This document shows, one piece after another, positions 8,957 to 27,757 of a stretch of 64,000 bases of DNA. Source of the stretch: a virus; the IMG/VR virus record IMGVR_UViG_3300007511_001080, positions 1 through 64,000 of that record. The stretch is one strand, 5' to 3'. The notes under the pieces were generated by a model. The model had not been told where the DNA came from. It did not search any database and saw only the letters and a program-made list of their open reading frames with translations. The first letter of the stretch is position 1. Each line of letters starts with the position of its first letter. The translations under genes and the position numbers were made by a program.

Positions 8957-9400
8957 TTAAGAACCGATTTGAATCAGTCGTGGTTTCTTTTCATCGGGAA
9001 TCACTCTTTCAAGGTCAATAATCAACATACCATCCTTGAGATCCGCACCCTTTACAATGATGTCATCGGACAAAGAAAATGTCCTACTAAAAGACCGCCT
9101 TGCAATCCCTTTGTGGACGAAAGAATCAGATTCTTCATCTTTCTCATTATCTTTGGAACGGATAACTAATTGTCCATCCGTTACTTCAACTTCAATATCA
9201 TCCTTTGAGAAACCAGCAAGGGCTAACTCAATAGAGTATTGAAATTCATTCTGTTTCCGAATGTTATATGGTGGATACGATTGCTGTGAACCTGTATCCA
9301 TATTGAAAAAACGATCAAAGATGTTATCGAAACCTACAGATAGGCCCATCATCTTTTGAAAGTCTTGGGGTGTAAACGCGGAGTGTCGTGCTAGTACCAT
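8957..9400 (-). CDS. hsp20: small heat-shock protein Hsp20 (alpha-crystallin type)
   Basis: 147 aa. An ATP-independent chaperone that holds unfolding proteins. Seen: an aromatic N-terminal arm, then the alpha-crystallin domain with YSIELALAGFSKDDIEVEV, QLVIRSK, the F.R.F.L segment (RSFSRTFSLSDDI) and A-L-DG-L-I. Strong AAGGAGG site. hsp20 is widespread in marine T4-like phages. Upstream lie two bulged hairpins, a small gene and a long structured leader with its own promoter, so expression is probably controlled at the RNA level. Confidence 0.92.
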   Translation of the reverse strand: MVLARHSAFTPQDFQKMMGLSVGFDNIFDRFFNMDTGSQQSYPPYNIRKQNEFQYSIELALAGFSKDDIEVEVTDGQLVIRSKDNEKDEESDSFVHKGIARRSFSRTFSLSDDIIVKGADLKDGMLIIDLERVIPDEKKPRLIQIGS

Positions 9401-9433
9401 AATGCCTCCTTATAAAGCGAGGTTAATAATATC

Positions 9434-9459
9434 CTCATCCTGTAGCACACAGCGATGAG
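9434..9459 (-). promoter_or_regulatory. bulged RNA hairpin in the hsp20 leader
   Basis: 26 nt: CTCATC pairs with GATGAG, one bulged G, then CTGT pairs with ACAG around a 5-nt loop. Lies 34 nt upstream of the hsp20 start. Same architecture as 9467-9492. Confidence 0.5.
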
Positions 9460-9466
9460 TAGTGAA

Positions 9467-9492
9467 TGAGGTTTCCACTATGGACAACCTCA
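9467..9492 (-). promoter_or_regulatory. second bulged RNA hairpin upstream of hsp20
   Basis: 26 nt: TGAGGTT pairs with AACCTCA, one bulged G on the 5' side, then TCCA pairs with TGGA around a 3-nt loop. It covers the stop codon of the 56-aa gene. No U-run follows, so it is unlikely to be a terminator. Confidence 0.5.
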
Positions 9493-9660
9493 GTCGCGCC
9501 AACCTTCTCCTGCACGGAGATGTTCGCAACGATGTTTGAAAACTATCCAAAATAATTCGATAAGAGAGTCGGCTGAATAATTTCCGGCTCCTTTAACCAA
9601 TAATTTATATTTAGTTTCCATACTGTCTTCCTCAATCATCCAATTTACATGATGTTTCAT
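9490..9660 (-). CDS. conserved small protein, 56 aa
   Basis: From the ATG at 9660 (MKHHVNWMIEEDS); an in-frame ATG at 9711 lies inside the structured leader and is rejected. Core is KYKLLVKGAGNYSADS..ELFWIVFKHRCEHLRAGEGWRD, a pattern I associate with small conserved proteins of T4-like cyanophages. Function unknown. Sits between the structured RNA and hsp20. Confidence 0.65.
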   Translation of the reverse strand: MKHHVNWMIEEDSMETKYKLLVKGAGNYSADSLIELFWIVFKHRCEHLRAGEGWRD

Positions 9661-9670
9661 AGTATATAGG

Positions 9671-9902
9671 TAAAAAAGGGTGAGGTGGGTAGTGGGACTC
9701 GGCGTACCCACAACATCGGAGAACGAACTTCCGTTAGCTTTATTCCTCCGTACCAGAACCCTCGCTGGTAAGCGAGATGTGACCCCCCTCTATTACTAGA
9801 GGGGTAGCCTCGGCACCATCCGTGAACTGTCTGACTATCCAGGCTCTCGACCAGATTATTATCAGTATACCCAAGGTCCGTCAACCTTTTGTTCACCCTT
9901 TA
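9671..9902 (-). ncRNA. large structured leader RNA (candidate manA-type motif)
   Basis: The transcript from the promoter at 9909-9936 runs 240 nt before the next ATG and is packed with helices: a closing stem AAGGGTGA/TCACCCTT (9900-9893 with 9683-9676), AAGGT/ACCTT, CCCCTCT/AGAGGGG, CTCGC/GCGAG, CGGAG/CTCCG with nested AACG/CGTT, and GTGGGTA/TACCCAC. The closing stem is followed by six U. The manA RNA motif is known from marine phages and bacteria, including upstream of ibpA-type chaperones, which fits hsp20 downstream; that assignment is inference. Confidence 0.6.
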
Positions 9903-9908
9903 TTCAAT

Positions 9909-9936
9909 AGTATAACATATATATACGATTTGTCAA
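9909..9936 (-). promoter_or_regulatory. sigma70-like promoter for the structured RNA and hsp20
   Basis: TTGACA (9936-9931), 16 nt, TATACT (9914-9909), extended TGT in front of the -10. Confidence 0.75.
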
Positions 9937-9946
9937 GTGGTCTGAA

Positions 9947-10207
9947 CTACTTCTTGGAATAAATTCCCCAAAGTACCCAAACTGCTACCAAACCTACAAG
10001 ACCTTCTGAACCAAGTTTACTCACAAGAGCAACTACTGACCCAACAATATCAAGACCAAGGAATGGAATTGTGGCTCCAAAAATCACCTGAAGTACGACT
10101 CCAAGAGCGATAATTGCTAAACCAACTTCTGTAAGGTTGCGAATCCAACCCAATACTTTATCTACCATAAAACTTCCTCCATTAGAAGATTTTTTCTTTT
10201 CAGCCAT
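9947..10207 (-). CDS. small membrane protein, 86 aa (holin candidate)
   Basis: A basic N-terminus is followed by two likely membrane segments, about residues 28-50 and 56-83 (LAIIALGVVLQVIFG and LVGLVAVWVLWGIY), separated by a short glycine-rich turn. Small two-helix proteins of this kind recur in T4-like marine phages. No other holin is evident near the endolysin, so this is a candidate; proof is lacking. AAAGGAG site 5 nt before the ATG. Confidence 0.65.
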   Translation of the reverse strand: MAEKKKSSNGGSFMVDKVLGWIRNLTEVGLAIIALGVVLQVIFGATIPFLGLDIVGSVVALVSKLGSEGLVGLVAVWVLWGIYSKK

Positions 10208-27729: not shown

Positions 27730-27757
27730 ATTATACAGTATAAACCCCTTTTGTCAA
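27730..27757 (-). promoter_or_regulatory. sigma70-like promoter for tRNA-Arg/Ala
   Basis: TTGACA (27757-27752), 16 nt, TATAAT (27735-27730), ten bp before tRNA-Arg. Confidence 0.72.

Follow-up and report, generated by a model that had tools for sequence, protein, structure and literature searches.

The structured RNA encoded upstream of hsp20 on the minus strand of a marine phage genome is a new, divergent member of the manA family, and the arrangement of its promoter, ends and neighbours suggests that it is probably an autonomous, mobile, early-type phage RNA that would act in trans. A wider proposal, which we place just on the probable side, is that manA constitutes an autonomous gene for a small RNA in marine T4-like phages, a single-copy, trans-acting cassette (promoter, ∼200–250-nt RNA and terminator) which moves as one and would act on host or phage, and that phage hsp20 genes carry a ROSE-type thermometer of their own. 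The window, the whole stretch of DNA analysed, comprises 64,000 nt of a virus record of 66,263 bases. Its DNA polymerase, assigned as such by PHROG, is ∼50% identical to the polymerases of T4-like cyanophages (cyanomyoviruses) and, because identity is only of this order, the record is taken to represent a marine phage of the T4-like group that has no close relative among named phages. Gene order on the minus strand is dUTPase, an 86-aa protein, the manA feature, a small ORF and hsp20. The latter (8957–9400, minus strand) encodes a 147-aa small heat shock protein (Pfam PF00011, HSP20, 5.5e-19; PHROG 432) and lies ∼270 nt past the U-run at the end of the RNA, so that manA at this locus is situated in the potential 5′ UTR of a chaperone gene. 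The small ORF (9490–9660, minus strand) starts 11 nt past the U-run. The first-pass annotation described a 56-aa gene followed by hsp20, and both are indeed found downstream, the small ORF measuring 56 aa when read from its first ATG (9660); just 43 aa from the ATG at 9621 (9490–9621; METKYKLLVK..GEGWRD) recur in relatives. This 43-aa ORF is retained upstream of hsp20 in many relatives, is absent in L326 and L331, and the small ORF had no match in Pfam or PHROGs.

A permissive Rfam scan of positions 9380–10000 (621 bases) matched the full manA model (RF01745, model positions 1–192) at 9682–9887 on the minus strand with a score of 56.3 bits (E 1.1e-13), narrowly above the gathering cut-off of 55.2. 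The default Rfam scan, run on the entire window, does not detect manA, and a covariance search of the whole record confirms it and detects a single copy. The leader had been put forward as a manA candidate to be compared with the manA and wcaG models; the former is matched whereas wcaG (RF01761) has no match in the window in either the default or the permissive scan, nor has glnA (RF01739) in the default scan. The annotation also stated correctly that manA occurs in marine phages, partly upstream of ibpA, as Weinberg 2010 reported it both from cyanophages and from possible 5′ UTRs of genes for ibpA chaperones and, like Rfam, classed it as cis-regulatory (PMC2864571). A 2023 paper again found manA in cyanophages and called the regulatory role unverified (PMC9964418). 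Because manA in cyanophages and beside ibpA/hsp20 has already been published, the window RNA is considered a divergent member of a known family. manA matches within the window clade range from 18.7 to 58.6 bits, with most members at 44–59, and 5 of the 16 relatives' contigs with a match reach the cut-off. Typical cyanophage members score 164–195 bits, which places the window clade on a far branch of manA. Homology of the leader to named phages is visible solely by covariance model, a DNA similarity search of named phages yielding no match with the window leader and one chance match with a clade relative.

Covariation, which the annotation suggested as a check, is extensive. In 13 distinct homologues, pairing across the 70 named pairs of the 12 helices amounts to 94.9%, compared with 85.6% in shuffles, and two-sided, compensatory changes occur in 22 pairs, a number reached in none of 500 shuffles, with slid controls giving 0–4. 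All six pairs of the helix formed by columns 47–52/61–66 are replaced by compensatory changes, and helices 6 and 10 are less well paired (72–74%). The earlier description of a ∼230-nt leader with at least six helices is thus upheld. The minimum free energy of the minus-strand RNA is below that of shuffles (z −2.3; 4/200), a difference which is modest taken alone. A plus-strand structure is equally stable by energy (z −2.8) but was rejected, since it is the minus strand that carries the promoter, the U-run and the manA match. A coding reading of the region (a 79-aa frame at 9657–9896) was likewise discarded, because one-base alignment gaps shift the frame and changes track base pairs.

The RNA is preceded by its own promoter. 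At 9909–9936 on the minus strand a sigma70-type sequence, TTGACA (9936–9931), a 16-nt spacer and TATACT (9914–9909), matches the consensus at 11 of 12 positions, has an extended −10 TG and is conserved in relatives, so that the consensus promoter described at first pass is present in near-consensus form. The window has 12 exact TTGACA-N16/17-TATAnT sites, of which this is one; allowing one mismatch gives 22 promoter-type sites (10 + 12) against ∼3.5 expected per spacing, and a further exact site lies directly upstream of the tRNA cluster (27730–27757). Transcription is expected to start ∼5–8 bases past the −10 box (9904–9901), coinciding with the first bases of an outer stem, P0, which is outside the Rfam model. 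The 5′ strand of P0, AAAGGGUGA, occupies 9893–9901 and the 3′ strand, UCACCCUUU, together with the U-run occupies 9672–9683, both on the minus strand, with partner bases at 9683–9675 running into a terminator-like U6; the closing stem and U-run noted earlier are therefore confirmed. Since the expected start meets the 5′ strand of P0 and its partner runs into U6, we predict an autonomous manA-family RNA of ∼230 nt with paired ends at 9672–9904 (minus strand), these ends being deduced from promoter spacing, the position of the outer stem at ∼+1 and the U-run, combined with covariation. P0 is invariant in the 13 relatives and within the main clade, and covariation is therefore informative for it solely through the more distant L336, in which P0 is AGAGGGGUGA/UCACCUCUCU, ten pairs being kept with both strands changed. 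L336 has no visible promoter and no immediate U-run. In L326 the stretch from manA to the small ORF seemed to contain a T4 late promoter, TATAAATA, a reading that was rejected because 7/8 or better is reached at 6 of 20 loci, with 4.8 expected, and the window shows no excess of such sites.

manA and hsp20 are separable. In the clade, manA precedes hsp20 in 24 of 29 stretches (L007 included) and is missing at hsp20 in L020, L038, L011, L018 and L019. In L038, P0 persists as a plain hairpin, AAAAAGGGTGA..TCGCCCTTTTT, and in L020 a mini-hairpin, AAAGGGTGA..TTACCCTTT, is found at the hsp20 site right after an intact TTGACA-N17-TATAAT. The contig of L020 (3300009104_001678) carries promoter, manA and P0 before an unrelated ORF near gp45 (L090/L340), ∼8 kb from the hsp20 site, and the promoter and P0 of this relocated unit are of the same kind. 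The ORFs which follow manA in L336 and L337 appear oxygenase-like on reading of their sequence. The initial view of manA as the leader of hsp20 is weakened by its loss or movement in close relatives that keep hsp20 and by the lack of a constant downstream gene, as well as by its own promoter and terminator-like end.

The same organization is observed across marine phages. At least 57 manA sites were collected from IMG/VR by the RNA-core pattern alone, a sample which favours well-conserved members, relies on automatic ORF calls and includes contigs that are possibly misassembled. Among the matches listed, upstream sequence was sufficient for 46 manA RNAs, and in 45 of these a dedicated sigma70-type promoter is located no further than 95 nt away (score of 10/12 or higher; 1.0 expected from shuffling); its −10 box ends 20 or 27–28 nt ahead of the GGGAG core in 37 of the 45 cases. 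Also among the matches listed, a U-run (T5) is located no more than 24 nt from the manA 3′ end in 20 of 47 (2.5 expected), a same-strand tRNA gene within 80 nt in 7 of 47 (0.22 expected) and a separate terminator-like hairpin further downstream in 13 of 56 (1.5 expected). The 54 ORFs downstream of manA among the matches listed fall into ∼30 groups, gp32 and transaldolase being the commonest by Pfam, and approximately one quarter of these manA RNAs closely precede gp32 with no terminator visible. Exactly one manA copy is present in each of 10 complete cyanophages. Neighbours in named phages are gp23, gp32, purL-hsp20, talC, pstS and a carbamoyltransferase gene, and in P-TIM68 an opposite-strand gene; manA lies before or near hsp20 in P-SSM2, L133, L145 and L161. 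When 84,980 cellular genomes were scanned with a core pattern, five stretches emerged, of which three are true manA, and by this test manA is thus essentially a viral RNA. The window record, a virus record with a polymerase ∼50% identical to those of cyanomyoviruses, conforms to this marine, T4-like phage distribution.

Additional sequence elements are associated with manA in these phages. A 3′ module of ∼45 nt, ACCUAAGAUGCAAC, a stem-loop and GGGCAGAUGGU, usually followed by a U-run, is found 12–22 nt past manA, examples outside the window being L161:4050–4084 (minus strand), L107:523–556 and L110:3493–3527, among many others. When the module is searched for without manA, each of the 59 distinct sites that have sufficient sequence upstream directly follows manA (47 by script, 12 by eye), and the module has no Rfam match. 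In many cyanophages (L219, L221, L222, L223 and L226) the gene before manA ends in a terminator hairpin that contains the −35 box of the manA promoter (GAGGGTGCTTGACACCCTCTTTTTTTATGCTATAAT). In L098, wcaG and manA occur in one contig (136–243 and 3043–3248), manA being right before tRNA-Pro and a tRNA array.

An autonomous, trans-acting RNA is the preferred explanation because manA has its own promoter at the 5′ end, occurs in one copy, has changing neighbours and moves with its promoter and P0. Host RNA polymerase would transcribe the unit early, the manA fold would join the two halves of P0 and transcription would stop at the U-run. The resulting stable RNA of ∼230 nt may act in trans through its conserved junctions, binding a protein or a small ligand, and would not regulate whichever gene chances to follow. 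Several observations argue against autonomy: manA is before or near hsp20 oftener than random placement suggests, a structured loop of ∼200 nt is unusual for an intrinsic terminator, the quarter of manA RNAs close before gp32, among the matches listed, has no visible terminator, and L336 lacks a visible promoter and an immediate U-run. The position of manA before hsp20 in most of the clade and the recurrence of hsp20 or purL-hsp20 neighbours in P-SSM2, L133 and L161 would rather fit a cis-acting leader or riboswitch, in which a signal or ligand sets P0 formation and termination, the small ORF and hsp20 being read when P0 is open. P0 and the U-run, between promoter and hsp20, could then be the expression platform. 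A riboswitch class is generally found before genes of a single pathway, and often in multiple copies, whereas manA is present once per genome and its downstream ORFs share no pathway (∼30 groups for 54 ORFs, among the matches listed), and in other phages it is followed by tRNAs or an opposite-strand gene. Furthermore, hsp20 is kept without manA in five relatives, one relative has manA elsewhere, hsp20 has its own hairpin hiding the Shine-Dalgarno sequence, and no alternative antiterminator pairing was identified. We thus regard cis-regulation as unlikely, in spite of the cis-regulatory class given to manA by Weinberg 2010 and Rfam (PMC2864571).

The coupling of promoter and RNA start almost everywhere, the variable downstream genes and the gp32 group which follows without a terminator are also consistent with a processed or stabilising 5′ module, in which manA begins early transcripts and is cut off or shields the 5′ end but carries no signal, any downstream gene benefiting from promoter strength and 5′-end stability. 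Neighbouring tRNAs would supply RNase P cut sites. The strongly conserved junctions and the strictly manA-linked 3′ module suggest a specific function instead and U-runs are over-represented, which leaves this explanation more doubtful than cis-regulation. A mere terminator of the upstream 86-aa gene with internal structure arising by chance, to which the plain terminator hairpin of the same P0 sequence in L038 might point, is highly improbable and is refuted by covariation, the full-length manA match and the 22 compensatory pairs excluding chance.

Control of hsp20 is most likely translational, exerted by a ROSE-type hairpin predicted to mask the ribosome-binding site. Three hairpins are predicted on the minus strand in the 100 bases immediately preceding hsp20, hairpin 1 at 9468–9491, hairpin 2 at 9434–9459 and the ROSE-like hairpin CCUCGCUUUAUAAGGAGG at 9405–9422. 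In the predicted fold the latter masks the entire hsp20 ribosome-binding site, a U(U/C)GCU motif (here UCGCU) with a bulged G lying opposite the Shine-Dalgarno sequence. ROSE-like thermometers have as their hallmark a U(U/C)GCU motif that pairs with the Shine-Dalgarno sequence before a small heat shock gene (PMC3669281). This pairing, in the 3′ proximal hairpin, is found in the window and in nearly all distinct phage hsp20 5′ UTRs, a strict motif match being obtained in 40 of 47 distinct hsp20 entries, the rest comprising one empty entry, one with a misplaced start and five with related hairpins. The association is specific, as 42 of 173 genes with AGGAG-ATG starts (L002–L177) have the motif, all 42 encoding Hsp20 and none of the 131 other genes possessing it. 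The window contains exactly one such site, at hsp20, and the hairpin is present both in isolates such as P-SSM2 and in uncultured phages (for example L219:2108–2124). Pairs outside the Shine-Dalgarno sequence change together, from C-G to U-A and from A-U to U-A, as read by eye. Rfam ROSE models remain below cut-off, in the window with a local ROSE_2 match to hairpin 1 only (9469–9490; 14.2 bits against 65), at the P-SSM2 hsp20 start with 13.9 against 65 and 16.7 against 43 bits, and at that of P-RSM4 with sub-threshold ROSE_2 and ROSE_3 matches. In nearest-neighbour folding from 5 to 45°C, a model which ignores the non-canonical pairs of ROSE elements, the Shine-Dalgarno sequence is mostly closed, mean unpaired probability changing from 0.01 to 0.12. 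Because energy folding reveals no melting below 45°C, temperature sensing stays a proposal.

What is new, as far as searched, comprises the outer stem P0, the 3′ module linked to manA, the ROSE-like hairpin of phages and the evidence that speaks for autonomy and relocation of manA. In the open-licence literature, we found neither a report of a ROSE-like hairpin in phages nor work on cyanophage thermometers or cyanophage manA transcripts. Marine viral contigs are rich in manA RNAs, and if these are stand-alone RNA genes, seeking a ligand of the downstream pathway is the wrong test. If the Hsp20-specific ROSE-like hairpin works, marine phages gauge temperature when making their chaperone.

With manA (RF01745) the window RNA shares a full-length match above cut-off, the order of helices, a marine T4-like phage as carrier and a nearby ibpA/hsp20 gene. 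It differs in being very divergent and in having the extra outer stem P0 with its U-run, and the evidence from genomic context speaks against the cis-regulatory role assigned to the family. The candidate riboswitches wcaG (RF01761) and glnA (RF01739) are likewise structured RNAs borne by cyanophages, neither being matched in the window. CfrI of cyanophage S-PM2 is a phage-encoded non-coding RNA of similar size (∼225 nt) from the same phage group; it is antisense to psbA, whereas manA is intergenic and folds into a multi-helix structure (PMC2984593). The phage hairpin at hsp20 shares with ROSE thermometers (RF00435, ROSE_2 RF01832 and ROSE_3 RF02523) the pairing of motif and Shine-Dalgarno sequence before a small heat shock gene but differs in scoring far under the Rfam cut-offs, in being phage-borne and in that its temperature response is a proposal.
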